A stretch of DNA of 64,000 bases from Cyanobacteria bacterium CG_2015-22_32_23 (GTDB lineage Bacteria > Cyanobacteriota > Cyanobacteriia > Cyanobacteriales > Cyanobacteriaceae), in contig JAACUG010000074.1 in NCBI GenBank assembly GCA_009993045.1, positions 1 to 64,000 of the forward strand, read 5' to 3'. A program made the translations under genes and the position numbers. How positions within the stretch are numbered: position 1 is the stretch's first letter; each line of letters opens with the position of its first letter. Under the pieces are notes generated by a model. It worked only from the letters and a program-made list of their open reading frames with translations. It had not been told where the DNA came from and did not search any database. Below, in pieces: positions 3,439 to 20,697 of the stretch.

Positions 3439-4125
3439 TTAGAGAGAGAAAAATTGTTGTAAATAATAAATTAAAATTCCACCAAAAACTGGTACAGTCA
3501 AATTATCAATGCCGATATAAGAAATAGTTTCTAAGATAGTAGCAAAAATACCAACTATTAAAGCAATTATCATATTTTCTAGTTGCCAATTATCGGTAAA
3601 AGTTAATACTATTAGGGTTATCAATATACTAACAAAAGTCATAGTTAATGAACCTTCCCAACTTTTTTTATTTCCCCATACTTGATAAGAATTTTTCCCC
3701 CATTTTTTCCCGATTAATGCTGCCATACCATCGCCATAACTCATGATTAAAATTCCCATGACGGTATATTGTTGTTGTCCATTTTCCCAAAATAATCCTG
3801 TTAAAATACCGATACTCATAGCATAAAATAATGTACCTAAACTTTTTCTTCCTACTCCGTTAACGCTAGGTAATATGGGCAAAAAATAAGATACGATGGC
3901 AACAAAAGAAGCTATGATAGAGGCAAAGATAATCATAAAAGTGGGAATATGAAACCACCATGCCAGTAGGATAACGTTACCTGTGCCGATGTGAACAATT
4001 TTACGAGTAAACTCACTATCAACTTTTGTGTAACGACGAGAAAATTCTGCTATTACTAATAAGAGACTAATATAAATAGTAACAATGAGAATAGGCAAAG
4101 AATAGGTAGATAAATCAGTTAACAT
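3439..4125 (-). CDS. Phytol/polyprenol kinase family membrane protein
   Basis: The product has 228 residues with about seven hydrophobic helices. The motif EFTRKIVHIGTGN and the later GDGMAALIGKKWGKN are typical of the CTP-dependent phytol/dolichol kinase family (VTE5, Synechocystis slr1652). The likely role is to phosphorylate phytol released from chlorophyll for tocopherol and phylloquinone synthesis. I chose the ATG at 4125 because a longer frame (start 4224) would overlap ictB by about 110 bp and adds a second hydrophobic stretch. From 4125 the overlap with the upstream gene is 11 bp. Family is well supported; substrate is inferred. Confidence 0.8.
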   Translation of the reverse strand: MLTDLSTYSLPILIVTIYISLLLVIAEFSRRYTKVDSEFTRKIVHIGTGNVILLAWWFHIPTFMIIFASIIASFVAIVSYFLPILPSVNGVGRKSLGTLFYAMSIGILTGLFWENGQQQYTVMGILIMSYGDGMAALIGKKWGKNSYQVWGNKKSWEGSLTMTFVSILITLIVLTFTDNWQLENMIIALIVGIFATILETISYIGIDNLTVPVFGGILIYYLQQFFSL

Positions 4126-14305: not shown

Positions 14306-14499
14306 GATTAATTTGTATAATAATTTCTGTAACCTCTTATTTTATCTTACTTAACCATCAAATAATCTCATTACCCCATGAAAAAAACCAAAAAACATCT
14401 TAAGCATCAAGACTTCATTTCATGAAAAATTAATGTACTATTTTTTACTAAGACTTGCTAAACCAAAAGAAAACAAGTTATAATAATTAAGCGTGTTAT

Positions 14500-14573
14500 G
14501 GGTGCGTAGCTCAGATGGATAGAGCAACTGCCTTCTAAGCAGTCGGCCACAGGTTCGAGTCCTGTCGCACCCG
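14500..14573 (+). tRNA. tRNA-Arg (anticodon UCU)
   Basis: A full cloverleaf can be drawn. The acceptor stem GGGTGCG pairs with CGCACCC (14566-14572) and the discriminator is G. The anticodon stem ACTGC/GCAGT encloses loop CTTCTAA with anticodon TCT at 14534-14536, and the T arm contains GGTTCGAGTCC. The 3' half, from the anticodon loop on, is duplicated at 20655-20697, marking this gene as the insertion site of the element described next. Confidence 0.97.
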
Positions 14574-14574
14574 T
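14532..14574 (+). repeat. Attachment site copy inside tRNA-Arg (attL side)
   Basis: 43 bp identical to 20655-20697. The block begins at the first base of the anticodon loop and ends one base past the discriminator. The preceding base (C versus A) and following base (C versus T) differ, so the borders are sharp. Confidence 0.92.
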
Positions 14575-14635
14575 CTTTTAAAATCAATACTTCTAGCTTT
14601 TTTCTCTACTAATTGTATTTAACATATATAAAAAC

Positions 14636-14724
14636 TGGATCATCTCTGGATCATTTTTTCTAATATTTGTTGTGTTAGTATTTCTGTTTTTTATGAAAGT
14701 ATAAAGTGGATCATTTCTGGATCA
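14636..14724. promoter_or_regulatory. TGGATCA boxes, left end (two pairs)
   Basis: TGGATCA occurs at 14636-14642 and 14647-14653, and again at 14707-14713 and 14718-14724. Within each pair the start-to-start distance is exactly 11 bp, one helical turn. The same box with the same spacing lies next to the other attachment site. Proposed role: arm-type binding sites for the integrase N-terminal domain (inference). Confidence 0.65.
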
Positions 14725-14780
14725 GTTTTAAGACTCTTTTTTAACTGGTTATATTCATCTTTGTAACTAGATCTTCTTTA

Positions 14781-14832
14781 GATCTCTGTTGATCTTGTGG
14801 CCCTCTAAAGGACCGCAAGATCAACAGAGATC
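14781..14832. repeat. Long hairpin (24-bp stem, 4-base loop)
   Basis: Arms 14781-14804 and 14809-14832 pair with a perfect inner run of 17 bp, one G-U pair and one mismatch, and loop CTAA. The stem contains repeated GATC words. No T-run follows on either strand, so it is not a classic intrinsic terminator. Confidence 0.85.
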
Positions 14833-15198
14833 AAAAATAGAACCTAATTAACACGAAATTGACACTACAAAAACCGCAAACTTGTAGATAAACACAATAC
14901 AATTTTGTACACCTTTGTGAACAATTTAGATACGGTTAAAAGCTAACTAATTCAGTTATATGTTTATGTAGGCCCTTAAAGGCCGATATAAGCACAGGCA
15001 ATCAGAAACAAAAAAAGAGTTTGATAATGATTCTCAAAATAATCTGATAATAGTTTTTAATATTCAGTACAAATACAAACAGCTAAGGTCTGAGAATGTA
15101 CTGAACATTATGTTGATTATCAAAAAATTTACTTTAGCCTTGATTCTTGAGTAAAGTGCAACACTTTGCACCATAGAATATGAGGCTTTTTCTAATTT

Positions 15199-18100
15199 TT
15201 ATGAAGAAATTGCTAACTCATAAAGATTTACTAATTCTTTGTCCGATAAGTCAAAAACATTTTTATAAGATCGTTTTATCTGGTTTTCTATGAAAGAATG
15301 TTTTTCACTCATAGAAAAGAATCCTAAATGCTCTAAATACATATTAATTATTTCTATCATATTATTAAAGTCTTTTTCTTTTATATCTGACTCAAAAAAT
15401 TGAACATTATCAACTTCATTTTTTTCTTGACTCACTTTTTTTGATGTTGCCTCCCCTATTTTTGTAAAAGTATTGATTTTATTAGGGTTTTTGCCTCCCA
15501 TGTTGCCTCCCATGTTGCCTCCCTTTTGCCTCCCTTTTGCCTCCCATGTTGCCTCCCCTTTTTGATTTTTACTCTCATTTTTTGCCTCCCCTGACTCATT
15601 TTTTTGATTTTTACTTTCATTTTTTATAAAATCTGGTTCATAATTATTGTTTATATATTGAAAATCAGATTTATTGTTAAATATCAGATCAGTTTTAGAC
15701 TCAGATAAGTCATTTTGAGTTTGTGATGGATTGAAAATTGATTGATTTTTGAGATTAGGGGAGTCAAGATTAGTTGTTAGGGGAGTCAATAGGGGAGTCA
15801 AAGGGGAGTCAATAGGGGAGTCAACATGATTGCCCTCAAACTCTTTATTATCAATAGTTTTAGAATTTTTAGGGGAGTCAGGGGAGTCAAGATCAAATTT
15901 TATCCCAGATAAATATTTTTTTTGATGAATAGTTTTTTCTTTTACTTTTGGGAATAGCTCTAAAATTCTTGTTTTTAAATCTTTACTTAGTTTGACGACA
16001 GGATCTTTTTTGTCATCATCTAACCAAATATTTTTTACCTTTTCGTTTTTGGTTTCAAACTCTAAATAGCCATTATTAAAATACCATTGAATTAATTTGC
16101 TATATATATCGCTAATACTTAACCGATCTGATTCATCACCCGTGAAAATTAATCCTAAGTCATTAGAGAATCTTCTTAGATGATTATTTTCTTCAATGAC
16201 CTCATTAAAGTAACTTTCAGATTGTTGATAATTAATGCCGTTTTGGTAAACATCTCCAAAAGCATCAATCAATAAATTTAATAACGCTGGTGCAACATCA
16301 TTAACCAGAAAGTTTTTATCATGCTTAAATCTTGGATCTGCTTTTAATTCACCTTGTTTTGGGTTCATGGAATAGGTTTTAGTGAAGGGAATTAAGGTCA
16401 GTCGTGATTGAATAGCGAATTGATTACCTTTTAAATCAGGCTTATGGTTAGTATTGAACACAAATAAAGTATTTAACTTAACCTCAAAACCATCTTTTCC
16501 TTTACCTTCAATAAATAATGGATCACCCGTGATTGCTTGTTTAAGAGATTGAATTGAATCAATGTTAATTTCTTTATTTTCACTACTCCAATTAAGTTTA
16601 GGATTAGTGGCAAGTCGAGCTAAATTAAAACCTCTTGATTGTGAAAAATCATTGAGAGAACAGCTTGTTATGCCCTGTTCACCTAAAATTAAACTTATTA
16701 CTTCTCTTACGGTATCTTTTCCGTTGCTACCATCACCAATTAACAAAAGGGCTTTTATTCGGTCCCACATTTCCTTGATTGTTTTGAAACTTAAAATTGT
16801 ACTAAGAGTTTTAACAAATAAACTTTTATACGGTTCATCGATACATTCTAATAATTTATTTGCTGGTTCTTTATTTGCTTTTGGATCATAGTTAACCTGA
16901 CTTTGATAAGTAAAATAAACATCATGAGAGTATTTTCTTAATTCAAATTTTGGCTTATTATTTTCATCTTTTATTAATGCTAAGTAACCATTTTTTAAAG
17001 GTATCCCTTCACAATTAACCTGACTAGGTGAAACTCCAAATAAAGCGTTTACCCATTTAAAAACATTTTCTACACTTGTCGGATTAGCTTTACTTTTCTT
17101 ACCTTTTTCATCAATATAATTAGAACACCAATTAACAATCTGTTTTTTAATAATTACTGTTTCTTTTTCTTCATAGTAATTTCCATTATATTGATATAAA
17201 ACATTATTTAAACTGATCCAATTACCATTAAATAATTCATTAGTTGCAATATTGATCCAAGAATCATTGATGACATTTTCATTGTTTGTAGTATGCTCTT
17301 TAAAGTCTCTTTTTTCACTTGTAACAGTGACTTTACTAGATTGCGATTGATTTGATTTAAACAAATTTGACCATTGACTTTTATTGATTAATCCTAACTC
17401 TATTAATTGATAATAAATAGTACCTAACCCAAAATTACCATTAGTTGATTCAATAATTTGTGACCAATTATAATCATCATCTAAACCGATAATATCACCA
17501 ATATTTAAAGCAATATCTTCTCCATAAAGTTGTTTTATCGCTCCTAATAATTTTCTATAATTATCATAAGTATTACTACCTTTTTGATGAGGTTTTACGA
17601 CATCTTTGATAAAGCTAATAACCTGATAATCAGTAACTTGATGATTATTCATAACTTTTTTAACTTCTTTAGGGATACTGCGAGGGATAATATTTCTTAA
17701 ACTTTCATAAGAGTAAGTATGTAAACAACCGCTAAGAACTTTTGATTTTTTTCCTTGAATTAGATTACCGTTTTCATCTTTTGAGTAGTGAAAATAATCT
17801 GGTAATCTCATTAGTCTTGAAGGATCTTTTACTGCTGGGTCTGATCCGATATAATCAATTAAGTCTTTGATTAATTCTTGCCATTGTTCAATTGGTACGG
17901 GTTCATCAAATACCCAATAATGATGAATGCTTTTACCCCCCGTAAATAGTCGAATAGTTGGAAATGGTAAATTAAATTTAGCTAATATGGTTAATTGTTC
18001 ATCGTAAGATAGGTTGTCAAACTCACAAAATAAGGCTTTTGCGGTTTTAATATCTTTCTTAGAATTACCTTGACCATTAACAACGAAATATACACCATAA

Positions 18101-18261
18101 CCTGATTCTTGTTTAGGTATTTCAGTTATGGGATAAGTTAGAGTAATTTTTTTTGGCGGCTTCTCTTTATCTAAGGGAATAGTTCTAATGAAAACTTTTT
18201 CCCCTTCACCGTACCCAAGACACTCTAAAAAATCGTTAATTTGACTATTTTCTGGTAACAT
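15199..18261 (-). CDS. Primase-helicase, P4/D5-like replication protein
   Basis: 1020 residues. The N-terminal part looks like an archaeo-eukaryotic primase domain: acidic motif in FCEFDN (about residue 78) and the S-x-H motif in TGGKSIHHYW (about 106-115). The middle to C-terminal part is a D5-N region followed by a superfamily 3 helicase: Walker A GDGSNGKDT at about 509-517, then acidic NWSSENKE and sensor-like VFNTNHKP. Residues about 790-940 are low complexity with DSP, LTP, GEA and GGN repeats and overlie two DNA iteron clusters. It likely initiates and unwinds at the element's own origin. The function class is well supported; the origin is inferred. Confidence 0.85.
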   Translation of the reverse strand: MLPENSQINDFLECLGYGEGEKVFIRTIPLDKEKPPKKITLTYPITEIPKQESGYGVYFVVNGQGNSKKDIKTAKALFCEFDNLSYDEQLTILAKFNLPFPTIRLFTGGKSIHHYWVFDEPVPIEQWQELIKDLIDYIGSDPAVKDPSRLMRLPDYFHYSKDENGNLIQGKKSKVLSGCLHTYSYESLRNIIPRSIPKEVKKVMNNHQVTDYQVISFIKDVVKPHQKGSNTYDNYRKLLGAIKQLYGEDIALNIGDIIGLDDDYNWSQIIESTNGNFGLGTIYYQLIELGLINKSQWSNLFKSNQSQSSKVTVTSEKRDFKEHTTNNENVINDSWINIATNELFNGNWISLNNVLYQYNGNYYEEKETVIIKKQIVNWCSNYIDEKGKKSKANPTSVENVFKWVNALFGVSPSQVNCEGIPLKNGYLALIKDENNKPKFELRKYSHDVYFTYQSQVNYDPKANKEPANKLLECIDEPYKSLFVKTLSTILSFKTIKEMWDRIKALLLIGDGSNGKDTVREVISLILGEQGITSCSLNDFSQSRGFNLARLATNPKLNWSSENKEINIDSIQSLKQAITGDPLFIEGKGKDGFEVKLNTLFVFNTNHKPDLKGNQFAIQSRLTLIPFTKTYSMNPKQGELKADPRFKHDKNFLVNDVAPALLNLLIDAFGDVYQNGINYQQSESYFNEVIEENNHLRRFSNDLGLIFTGDESDRLSISDIYSKLIQWYFNNGYLEFETKNEKVKNIWLDDDKKDPVVKLSKDLKTRILELFPKVKEKTIHQKKYLSGIKFDLDSPDSPKNSKTIDNKEFEGNHVDSPIDSPLTPLLTPLTTNLDSPNLKNQSIFNPSQTQNDLSESKTDLIFNNKSDFQYINNNYEPDFIKNESKNQKNESGEAKNESKNQKGEATWEAKGRQKGGNMGGNMGGKNPNKINTFTKIGEATSKKVSQEKNEVDNVQFFESDIKEKDFNNMIEIINMYLEHLGFFSMSEKHSFIENQIKRSYKNVFDLSDKELVNLYELAISS
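15447..15590 (-). repeat. Iteron cluster A (GGGAGGCAA, 8 copies) inside the primase gene
   Basis: On the coding strand, GGGAGGCAA occurs at 15447-15455, 15491-15499, 15503-15511, 15515-15523, 15526-15534, 15537-15545, 15549-15557 and 15582-15590. Six central copies are spaced 11-12 bp. The 9-mer is read in all three frames: GEA/WEA, GRQ and GGN. Preservation of the DNA word irrespective of the encoded residues points to a DNA-level function. Confidence 0.85.
15758..15889 (+). repeat. Iteron cluster B (GGGGAGTCA, 7 copies) inside the primase gene
   Basis: Copies are at 15758-15766, 15780-15788, 15792-15800, 15803-15811, 15815-15823, 15872-15880 and 15881-15889. Four are spaced 11-12 bp. The word GGGAGTCAA differs from the cluster A word GGGAGGCAA by one base and lies in the opposite orientation. 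In the protein it appears as DSP in one frame and LTP in another. Confidence 0.85.
17315..17330. promoter_or_regulatory. Operator-like palindrome within the primase gene
   Basis: TCACTTGTAACAGTGA has arms TCACT and AGTGA six bases apart. It differs by one base from the reverse complement of the two sites upstream of the small-gene pair. It lies about 940 bp inside the primase coding region, so a role as a roadblock or auxiliary operator is only a guess. Confidence 0.45.
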
Positions 18262-18294
18262 AAGATTATCGTTAAATTTGACTATTTTTGATTG

Positions 18295-18355
18295 TTTTTA
18301 CTGCTAGTTACAGTAAAAAAAGGGTTTTTGGTAAGGTGTACCCTAAAAACACCTT
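18295..18355. promoter_or_regulatory. Two hairpins upstream of the primase gene
   Basis: TTTTTACTG (18295-18303) pairs with CAGTAAAAA (18311-18319) across 7 bases, and AAGGTGT (18333-18339) pairs with ACACCTT (18349-18355) across 9. They fill the 168-bp gap between the 113-residue gene and the primase start. The first contains GTTACAGTAA, close to half of the palindromic operator. Reading on the minus strand, the second hairpin is followed about 14 bases later by a T-run, so an attenuator between the small genes and the primase is possible. Confidence 0.5.
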
Positions 18356-18429
18356 TTATTGTTATTTTTAAGTTTATCCTTTCAGGTAATTACTGAAGGG
18401 ATTATTTTTATTATACTGTAGCAACACAT

Positions 18430-18771
18430 TTATTGGTCATTTTTTGATTTATTCATTTTCTCCATTAAAAGTATAAAAATTTCAGGATCTAAAGCATGAC
18501 GTAAAACTATTTTCATTAAGTCTTTATTCATGACAAGATCAGATTTTACTGGGCTTAAACGGCTTGTCCACATATCTTCATTTTGCATTCTTTTTATCAA
18601 ATTTTTCACATCTGGTGAACTTGTTTTTGCATTCCATAAAAAGTCAATTAATATTAATGGTAAAACCTCAGACATTAAAACATTATTTTCTTCACAATAT
18701 TGCCTTAATGCTTTATCTATATTTGGGTGTGCAGTAAATCTTATTATTTTCTTTTTTCTCTTTTCACTCAT
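18430..18771 (-). CDS. Small ribbon-helix-helix-like protein
   Basis: 113 residues, basic N-terminus (MSEKRKKKIIRFTAHPN) giving a possible beta strand, then two helices with ALRQYCEENN and LMSEVLPLILIDFLW, a layout seen in CopG/Arc-type DNA-binding proteins. The C-terminal 50 residues are helical and unrecognised. The ATG directly follows the stop of the 90-residue gene (TAAATG), with GAGG eight bases upstream, so the two are translationally linked. A repressor of the element is a reasonable guess; no close family is recognised. Confidence 0.6.
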   Translation of the reverse strand: MSEKRKKKIIRFTAHPNIDKALRQYCEENNVLMSEVLPLILIDFLWNAKTSSPDVKNLIKRMQNEDMWTSRLSPVKSDLVMNKDLMKIVLRHALDPEIFILLMEKMNKSKNDQ

Positions 18772-19044
18772 TTAATTATCCTCATTTATTAATTGTTTAA
18801 TATCTTTGATTAAGTTATTAGCATACTTAACCTTATAACCAGATTCTTGATTATTAATTTTATTTACTATTTCTTTAAGTTTCTCTGTAACAAGTGAATC
18901 ATTAGGTTTAATTCCTAAATCTAATTGATAAGCATAAGCTAAGATTTCATCTTCAAATGTCTCAGGTATTCTGATTAATTTTGTTGGGGTATTTTGCCAT
19001 TTACTCTTAAATGGTTTTAGGTTATCTAAGTTGTTTTTGTGCAT
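18772..19044 (-). CDS. Small protein with cyanobacterial RIPE-motif N-terminus, probable DNA binder
   Basis: 90 residues. The segment TPTKLIRIPETFEDEILAYA resembles the strand-helix start of ribbon-helix-helix proteins common in cyanobacterial accessory genes; the C-terminal half is lysine-rich and helical. It is first in a two-gene unit with the 113-residue protein. Two palindromic sites lie 13 and 80 bp upstream of its ATG, and a near-copy lies inside the gene, which would fit autoregulation. Function inferred from motif and context only. Confidence 0.6.
   Translation of the reverse strand: MHKNNLDNLKPFKSKWQNTPTKLIRIPETFEDEILAYAYQLDLGIKPNDSLVTEKLKEIVNKINNQESGYKVKYANNLIKDIKQLINEDN
18882..18897. 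promoter_or_regulatory. Operator-like site inside the 90-residue gene
   Basis: TCTCTGTAACAAGTGA matches the upstream operators at 15 of 16 positions. It encodes part of DSLVTEK, so coincidence with coding sequence is possible. Confidence 0.4.
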
Positions 19045-19056
19045 GGATGCAATAAC

Positions 19057-19072
19057 TCACTGTAACAAGTGA
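19057..19072. promoter_or_regulatory. Palindromic operator, promoter-proximal copy
   Basis: TCACTGTAACAAGTGA, with arms TCACT and AGTGA, begins 13 bp upstream of the ATG of the 90-residue gene. An identical 16-mer lies 67 bp further up. Position over the likely promoter or 5' leader suggests repressor binding. Confidence 0.6.
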
Positions 19073-19123
19073 ACTTTAACTATTGTTGACGATTAGATTA
19101 TAACATACTTAATAGCTCTTTTT

Positions 19124-19139
19124 TCACTGTAACAAGTGA
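19124..19139. promoter_or_regulatory. Palindromic operator, promoter-distal copy
   Basis: Exact second copy of TCACTGTAACAAGTGA. The 67-bp centre-to-centre distance between the two copies would suit looping or cooperative binding. Confidence 0.6.
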
Positions 19140-19317: not shown

Positions 19318-20493
19318 TTAAAATAATTCTGGTAATTCTAAACTTTCATCTACTGCTAAATAATTTCTGATCAGAGTTGGTACTGAATTACCAACAATAT
19401 TAGCTATAGTTTGTAAATCAGCTTTACCCGATCTGCATAGGTGAGTAGTATAGCAATGTCGAATATCATAAAAAGTTAAATATTCTTTAACTAAACCATC
19501 ATTGATTAAATGATTCAGTATTTTTTTCCAAATTCTTTTTGAAAAATTATGAGTATCAAGATAATCACCATTTAAGTTAGGAAAAATCAGTTTAGAATGT
19601 CTTTTTGGAATTTCTTTTAATAATTCATAGAGTTGTTTATTAACTGGAAATAAACGACAATAAACACCATTTTTAGTACCTTCTTTTAACTCATTATCAG
19701 TGTATCTTTTGTCAAATTTAATCCACATTTTTCCATTATTATCAATAATATCATTCCATGTTAACGCTATTGCTTCACTAGGACGACAACCCGTTAAAAA
19801 TCTAAAAGCAACAAAATAATAATAAAAACTATGGGAGTTAATACCACTATATTTACTTAGATAAGTATCATTTTTAAATGCTGATAATATCGCTTTAACT
19901 TCTTCTTTATTAAATGATTTAATTTGTTTATGTTTTTTTACATTTAAGTCATAAATAATGTTAGGTAAATAATTTTGTCCTTTGAATTTACCGTGTTTTA
20001 TTGACATATTAATACCAGCACTGAGACTTTTTAATATTTTTTCAACTCTTGATAAAGCATAATTTTCTTTAAGTAATTCTACAAAATCAGCAACATTTTC
20101 TACTGGAATAAAATTATCTAATAATTTATCTATAGGATACCAAGTTACTTGTTTAGTTTTTAAAGAAATATGTTGTTTGTTTTTTTTATAATATTCCCAT
20201 AGTTCTTTAAGGGTAATTTGTGTTAAATCAGGGTTAATCGGAATAACTTTTTTTTGATAATTTAACTTATATTTTTCTTTTGTTTCATCATAGCGATCAT
20301 AAAGATAAATATCATTATGAATTTCCGTCGCTTTAGCAATAGCAATATTTTGATTTTCAGAATCAAAGTAATTTAAAGGATAACTAATAAATTGACGTTG
20401 TCCTTGATAAGTATAAATTAAACGAATTAAACCGCTTCTATTCTGAATAGTAATTTTTATTCCAGAAGGTCTGTAACTTTTCTCAGGTATCAT
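19318..20493 (-). CDS. Tyrosine recombinase (integrase)
   Basis: 391 residues. The N-terminal 80 residues (GLIRLIYTYQGQRQFISYP followed by AKATEIHNDIYLYD) resemble the Min27-type arm-DNA-binding domain. A core-binding domain follows, then the catalytic domain: first Arg in TGCRPSEAIALTW, His-x-x-Arg region as DIRHCYTTHL, and nucleophile Tyr in RNYLAV. The position often held by His/Trp before the Tyr is Asn (IVGNSVP), as in some cyanobacterial relatives. It sits beside the attachment site and its upstream region overlaps the TGGATCA boxes, so it may regulate itself. Role: site-specific integration at tRNA-Arg. Confidence 0.92.
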   Translation of the reverse strand: MIPEKSYRPSGIKITIQNRSGLIRLIYTYQGQRQFISYPLNYFDSENQNIAIAKATEIHNDIYLYDRYDETKEKYKLNYQKKVIPINPDLTQITLKELWEYYKKNKQHISLKTKQVTWYPIDKLLDNFIPVENVADFVELLKENYALSRVEKILKSLSAGINMSIKHGKFKGQNYLPNIIYDLNVKKHKQIKSFNKEEVKAILSAFKNDTYLSKYSGINSHSFYYYFVAFRFLTGCRPSEAIALTWNDIIDNNGKMWIKFDKRYTDNELKEGTKNGVYCRLFPVNKQLYELLKEIPKRHSKLIFPNLNGDYLDTHNFSKRIWKKILNHLINDGLVKEYLTFYDIRHCYTTHLCRSGKADLQTIANIVGNSVPTLIRNYLAVDESLELPELF

Positions 20494-20540: not shown

Positions 20541-20580
20541 TGGATCAAATATGGATCAAAATTAGATCATAATTGGATCA
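20541..20580. promoter_or_regulatory. TGGATCA boxes, right end (four at 11-bp pitch)
   Basis: TGGATCA at 20541-20547, 20552-20558 and 20574-20580, with a variant TAGATCA at 20563-20569. All four starts are exactly 11 bp apart. The array lies between the integrase start and attR. It mirrors the paired boxes at the left end and so probably binds the integrase or an excisionase. Confidence 0.7.
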
Positions 20581-20654
20581 TTTTTTATCAACTTGAATAG
20601 CCAAAATAAACTTATAACGTTGATATTTTCTAATAAATTAATTATATCACCTTA

Positions 20655-20697
20655 CTTCTAAGCAGTCGGCCACAGGTTCGAGTCCTGTCGCACCCGT
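20655..20697 (+). repeat. Attachment site copy, tRNA 3' fragment (attR side)
   Basis: 43-bp duplicate of the tRNA-Arg 3' half from the anticodon loop to one base past the discriminator. It lacks the 5' half and cannot form a tRNA. The gap 20494-20808 otherwise contains the TGGATCA boxes and the dapA upstream region. Confidence 0.92.

Follow-up and report, generated by a model that had tools for sequence, protein, structure and literature searches.

What does a palindrome that recurs along a small mobile element do for the element that carries it? The question is posed by a 64,000-nucleotide stretch of contig JAACUG010000074.1 from Cyanobacteria bacterium CG_2015-22_32_23 (the window), in which an element of ~6.1 kb is delimited by 43-bp direct repeats, one of them in a tRNA-Arg(tct) gene. 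The supported genes between these att repeats, all on the minus strand, are only those for a tyrosine integrase, for the predicted repressor p90, for a second small protein (p113) and for a replication protein (rep; 1020 amino acids, with D5_N/DUF5906); an integrase with direct repeats, one in a tRNA gene, marks a tRNA-integrated mobile element. Four copies of the palindrome, O1 to O4, are found ahead of p90, within p90 and within rep (Table 1). With a probability of roughly 0.7, judged from sequence comparison, these copies are operators of p90, which would repress its own p90–p113–rep operon with the intragenic copies as auxiliary sites, the whole acting in copy-number or maintenance control.

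A sequence-only reading of the window had described TCACT-N6-AGTGA as an element-wide operator, with two exact copies ahead of p90, one-mismatch copies in p90 and in the primase gene and a half-site upstream of the latter. The two exact copies (O1 and O2) and the one-mismatch copy (O3) were found at the positions it gave. The copy in the primase gene (O4) is also present, but its arms match exactly; compared with the full 16-mer it differs at one central base, and it lies on the strand opposite to the other copies. The half-site, GTTACAGTAA near 18303, proved to be a hairpin arm (TTTACTG...CAGTAAA) and not an operator copy; relatives retain this hairpin, with compensating changes from T-A to C-G. 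Taken alone, the arms are weak evidence, barely above chance: the window has 5 matches at no more than one mismatch where 1.51 would be expected, a count that 2 of 100 shuffles attained, and the source genome contains one more exact match outside the element. Therefore, the full 16-mer TCACTTGTTACAGTGA was used for further tests. When up to three mismatches are allowed, 7 kb contain 4 sites, compared with 0.1 in shuffles. Across 195 Cyanobacteriales genomes, TCACTTGTNACAGTGA occurs 24 times, and 17 of these occurrences are in four genomes (3 in the window's genome, 4 in G004, 4 in G011 and 6 in G009), all within elements; the remaining 7 are single matches in 7 other genomes, and a reversed control pattern was absent from every genome listed. 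The full 16-mer is a strong marker of the element, to which it is confined in the four carrier genomes.

Related replicons were sorted by operator into group A, with TCACTTGTTACAGTGA (window, G004, G011, G009, pAL20115c and pAL20118c), and group B, with AATCGGAGTGTACAAATA (L058, which is a second locus of G011, pAL20118f and pAL20118e (L106)); the two operator types can be represented by TCACTTGTTACAGTGA and AATCGGAGTGTACAAAT. The proposal of an element-wide operator is supported at the sequence level by the recurrence of the same four places in G004, in G011 and in both tandem copies of G009, where O3 has two mismatches to the window consensus. O1 and O2 are 67 bases apart and O2 and O3 174–175 in the window, G004 and G011, the corresponding distances in G009 being 59 and 184. 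A promoter-like extended -10 between the two upstream copies is likewise conserved as a prediction: TGnTATAAT is found 23–25 bases after the distal core in all eight group A and B replicons examined, window included, with the TG present in seven. It came from the comparison of relatives, a sigma-70 promoter scan having detected no pair where one was expected. The p90 gene of G009 is inverted, both operators there lie between the divergent p90 and p113–rep, and a TATAAT also faces p113.

The exchange of genes among these replicons suggests which protein reads the operator. In pAL20118f (L105), p113 is 81% identical to that of the window and p90 50%, and the operator is of group B, unlike that of the window; in pAL20115c (L103), p113 is 21% identical and p90 74%, and the operator is of group A, as in the window. 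The rep gene is a mosaic, its N and C modules occurring in all four combinations. The N module is PrimPol-like in the window, L055, L056 and L106 (a label that we presume from motifs, with no Pfam match) and of another type, with a weak Toprim match, in L057, L103 and L105, and the C module is DUF5906 in the window, L055, L105 and L106 and VapE in L056, L057 and L103. A site of the O4 type is found at the module junction in six of eight replicons and is always of the resident p90's type. Operator type tracks p90 and neither p113 nor either rep module. p90 homologs that precede unrelated genes still have matched cores. The most likely reader of the palindromes, on these comparisons, is p90 rather than p113; the earlier suggestion of a small element-borne repressor governing its own operon, replication gene included, is supported and can be narrowed from the two small proteins to p90. 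Five p90-like genes (L176, L186, L224, L183 and L226) were seen to directly precede KilA-N (3), Phage_pRha (1) or Bro-N (1) proteins, which are perhaps antirepressor partners.

A survey of the p90 family was used to relate protein and operator. A search of 388 genomes with the query A1 gave matches in 112; regions were fetched for a subset of the listed matches (20 first, then 80 more), and 104 p90 homologs were analysed after 2 duplicates were dropped. Among the 28 homologs with Ala at residue 23, the upstream core was TGTACA in 20, TGTNACA in 2, both in 1 and neither in 5, whereas the 76 without Ala had TGTACA in 2, TGTNACA in 32, both in 1 and neither in 41 (Fisher p 6e-11, relatedness ignored). 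The 81 loci fetched after the residue-23 idea repeated the pattern, with TGTACA against TGTNACA at 14 to 2 for Ala (1 both, 5 none) and 2 to 21 for non-Ala (36 none). In a column scan of 47 representatives, residue 23 ranked first for core type (z 12.8; next column 8.0) and is the best predictor among p90 columns. The tree requires 7 core changes, at least 4 of them forced by supported branches, and with residue 23 masked it yields 3 supported independent pairs, of which ~2 are concordant and 0 opposite.

An operator copy in the repressor's own reading frame, as with O3, is a new finding of this comparison, and it follows each homolog's own operator. Among 54 homologs with an upstream core and a short gene, 24 carry an embedded copy at an identity of 0.74 or more (a cut chosen post hoc; the permutation tests use none), and in 23 of the 24 it starts 23–32 codons past residue 22, just beyond the first helix. 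The encoded peptides vary with the operator (SLVT, SIVT, STVT, SPVT, DCVT, RSVQ, DNVH, DVSH). Across 39 representatives, each operator matched its own codons 18–40 at 0.676, against 0.566 when permuted (sd 0.013; p 5e-5), and no such matching was found in codons 0–18 (p 0.74) or 40+ (p 0.16). The result was retained within core classes (p 5e-5), in 28 new loci (p 5e-5; the control at codons 40+ was borderline there, p 0.044) and in 23 representatives below 55% identity (p 1e-4). In five group A p90 genes, the S, L and T codons of SLVT are invariant, against a background of 9 invariant among 33 conserved degenerate columns, and the one V codon change (GTA, in G009) is also present in both G009 upstream operators. 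A search of open-licence papers found no intragenic operator in a repressor gene, which does not prove its absence from print.

The same control region is also found outside chromosomes. Relatives of p90 are carried by 4–6 kb circular plasmids of Cyanobacterium aponinum and by pGM3709_11, and pAL20118c and pAL20115c have the gene order p90–p113–rep, as in the window. This order, with operators at the predicted promoter, is seen in plasmids and integrated relatives and could be that of a copy-control operon of the cop-rep type. Because free plasmids share the control region, control of plasmid copy number or maintenance is more likely than the lysogeny-like switch that the sequence-only reading had envisaged. 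A temperate-phage switch would call for two opposing regulators and lytic genes; neither a further, opposing regulator nor a gene for phage structure is seen between the att repeats, and the four element genes match no phage structural family. A phage or viral home of the element is unsupported, as viral contigs yielded 0 p90 relatives; they did contain 25 exact 16-mers, one match per contig. A genome-contig collection gave no p90 relative and no double-operator match, a weak blank given that relatives are present in other collections.

From the computed sites, from how they are conserved and from the way they track p90, we infer that p90 binds, dimerises and represses, that looping or a roadblock contributes and that copy number is controlled. 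A p90 dimer would bind two facing half-sites ACA(A)GTGA across the TGTNACA core and would repress the extended -10 promoter between O1 and O2, limiting p90, p113 and rep. O3 and O4, the latter at the primase–helicase junction of rep, are most likely auxiliary operators and would reinforce repression, either through a loop to O1/O2 or as an obstacle to RNA polymerase. The purpose would be to control the copy number or the maintenance of a plasmid-like element able to sit in a tRNA gene. A wider joint reading, which we hold at even odds, is that each repressor of the family keeps its own operator within its own frame, at the loop that follows the first helix, with DNA site and specificity co-evolving and the loop amino acids as passengers of the DNA. 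One residue in the presumed recognition strand would switch half-site spacing (TGTACA/TGTNACA), and the dispersed operators would form a distance-coupled brake on replication.

Several results weigh against p90 as an autorepressor acting through all of these sites. L056 and L058 have p90 proteins that are 67% identical and operators that differ, which means that the operator cannot be predicted from how similar two p90 proteins are overall. Neither core is found upstream of 46 of the 104 homologs, 6 of the 104 are mixed or contrary to the residue-23 rule, and the rule rests on few independent switches (the 3 pairs), for which a sign test is not significant. No rep site was found in L103/L104 (one rep) within 4 mismatches or in L058 within 5. 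When codons were shuffled with the protein fixed, the embedded site was significant in only 13 of 54 homologs (window p 0.06), since the encoded amino acids by themselves leave little of the site free to vary. Looping and roadblock fit equally well for O3 and O4. In addition, p90 matches no known DNA-binding family: the window protein had no match to a ribbon-helix-helix (RHH) profile, and Foldseek with its AlphaFold2 (AF2) model found no fold match.

That model, from a single sequence, is poor (mean confidence score, pLDDT, 62), with helices at residues 28–42, 50–65 and 72–88 and residues 18–27 non-helical; the p113 model is poor too (pLDDT 59), and profile comparison of p90 with p113 gave no assignment. 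The p90 family is without Pfam, NCBIfam, PHROG or PDB assignment, and 62 homolog cores compared with RHH profiles gave one weak RHH_1 match (E 0.087). Of the RHH-like two-gene unit proposed earlier, the gene in the p113 place in L106 matches RHH_1, and p90 has no such match. The RHH label for p90 is weakly placed, on the short strand pattern TKxIRxP. Its TKLIRIP resembles what we take to be the Arc beta-strand, QFNLRWP, in which residue 23 would fall at the place of Arc N11.

The L106 match is also what speaks for p113 as the reader of the palindromes, with p90 as a passenger or co-factor, since the p113-place protein of that replicon is a recognised RHH_1 protein and p90 is not. We consider this very unlikely and rejected it on the exchange seen in L105 and L103, where the operator is unchanged at 21% p113 identity and changed at 81%; the matched cores of p90 homologs with unrelated downstream genes and the tracking of the core by p90 residue 23 point the same way. 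A different role for the sites themselves would be a partition or handcuffing array, in which p90 links operators of sister plasmids, or distant operators of a single plasmid, blocking replication or segregating copies, and autorepression is secondary. The copies are indeed spread over 1.8 kb, one of them within rep, and pGM3709_11 (L107) has extra CACTTGTNACAAGTG-type palindromes at 3572, 3851 and 4333, beyond its large open reading frame and distant from p90; moreover, a plasmid antitoxin, PrpA, is reported to control copy number directly (PMC7848731). Against this, no partner ATPase lies between p90 and rep, two of the sites tightly flank the promoter and the rep site is absent in two of eight replicons, which together make such an array unlikely as the main function.

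It could also be that the intragenic copies are a by-product, arising from the conserved peptide SLVT or as copies spread by recombination, with no operator role, the rep copy only marking the place of module exchange. The location of that copy at the junction of swapped modules and the modest outcome of the codon shuffles fit this account. The encoded peptide, however, varies with the operator, own-pair matching exceeds permutation, and in type the rep copy agrees with the resident p90 and not with the module, and we regard a by-product as improbable. Autorepression by p90, with auxiliary sites in p90 and rep, is the reading preferred here.

Table 1. Coordinates of the element, its genes and its palindromic sites in the window
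Feature	Position	Strand	Remarks
att repeat, 43 identical bases	14532..14574	+	3' part of tRNA-Arg(tct) 14499-14575
Second att repeat, same 43 bases	20655..20697	+	other boundary of element
Tyrosine integrase gene	19318..20493	-	PF00589
p90 gene, 90-amino acid predicted repressor	18772..19044	-	
p113 gene, second small protein	18430..18771	-	same-place gene in pAL20118e matches RHH_1 (PF01402)
Three-hairpin leader between p113 and rep	18262..18429	-	includes the 'half-site' GTTACAGTAA
Replication gene (rep)	15199..18261	-	PrimPol-like N part and D5_N/DUF5906 helicase part
Operator O1 (distal, predicted)	19124..19139	-	TCACTTGTTACAGTGA in gene orientation
Operator O2 (proximal, predicted)	19057..19072	-	5' leader just ahead of p90 start codon
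Operator O3 (predicted)	18882..18897	-	within p90 reading frame; codes SLVTE
Operator O4 (predicted)	17315..17330	+	in rep at junction of its two modules; codes KVTVTSE
Predicted extended -10	19097..19105	-	TGTTATAAT; 25 bases after O1 core

Further features of the element and its relatives were noted. The three hairpins of the leader between p113 and rep are kept in L055, L056, L057 and L105, with 6 pairs changed on both sides and a possible loop pairing of GGGT with ACCC, and the region may act as an origin or as a control leader for rep; in an Rfam scan, tRNA was the sole model above threshold. Downstream of rep, an inverted repeat at 14772-14841 (33-base arms, 85% complementary, 4-base gap) forms a strong hairpin that is perhaps a two-way terminator. 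TGGATCA units are repeated near both element ends (14614-14742 and 20541-20598), possibly as arm-type integrase sites, and 11–12 bp tandem repeats are found in the C-terminal part of rep at 15486-15573 and 15745-15902. The G011 relative has 45-bp repeats at tRNA-Val. In G009 (L057, contig C21, 1-11500), there is a tandem of two near-identical element copies that lie 5721 bp apart, and the att sequence is present three times at tRNA-Val. Several equal-scoring p90-like genes per chromosome in G278:C1 and G291:C1 suggest a multicopy mobile element.

Among known systems, CopG of pMV158 is an RHH autorepressor of the copG–repB operon. As proposed for the element, the repressor comes first in an operon with the replication gene, and its operator overlaps the promoter; unlike CopG, p90 has no RHH_1 match, the operators are also within the p90 and rep genes, and rep is a primase-helicase rather than a rolling-circle initiator. 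Arc and Mnt, RHH repressors of phage P22, differ from p90, which is without a profile match, is longer and has a variable linker carrying the operator. Auxiliary operators inside coding sequences are known from lac O2 in lacZ and gal OI in galE; those lie in the target gene, whereas here a copy is also found in the repressor's own gene and is tracked across the family. The small repressors of cyanobacterial CRISPR-associated transposons, Arc_1/Arc_2 and CvkR, likewise combine mobile elements with palindromic sites; CvkR is of the MerR type and binds AnnACATnATGTnnT, Arc_1/2 are upstream of cas12k, and the part of the source available names no site within a coding region for them (PMC9938897). 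In pSYSA, the small gene ssr7036 immediately precedes a cyanobacterial rep gene of the primase-helicase kind (ssr7036/asRNA1/CyRepA1), and copy control is by RNase E and antisense RNA (PMC9978351; for CyRepA, see also PMC10079941). Ssr7036 was rejected as a p90 relative, the p90 motif being absent by eye and no TGTNACA core lying upstream.

The embedded, co-varying operator takes the finding beyond the original palindrome claim. If the reading is true, the family would offer a natural series of repressor–operator pairs, spread over tens of diverged lineages and carried on exchangeable plasmid modules, with specificity readable from sequence, and would include a repressor gene that holds its own co-evolving operator as coding sequence. 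It would also supply repressors and replicons for cyanobacterial vectors, of which few have been characterised so far.

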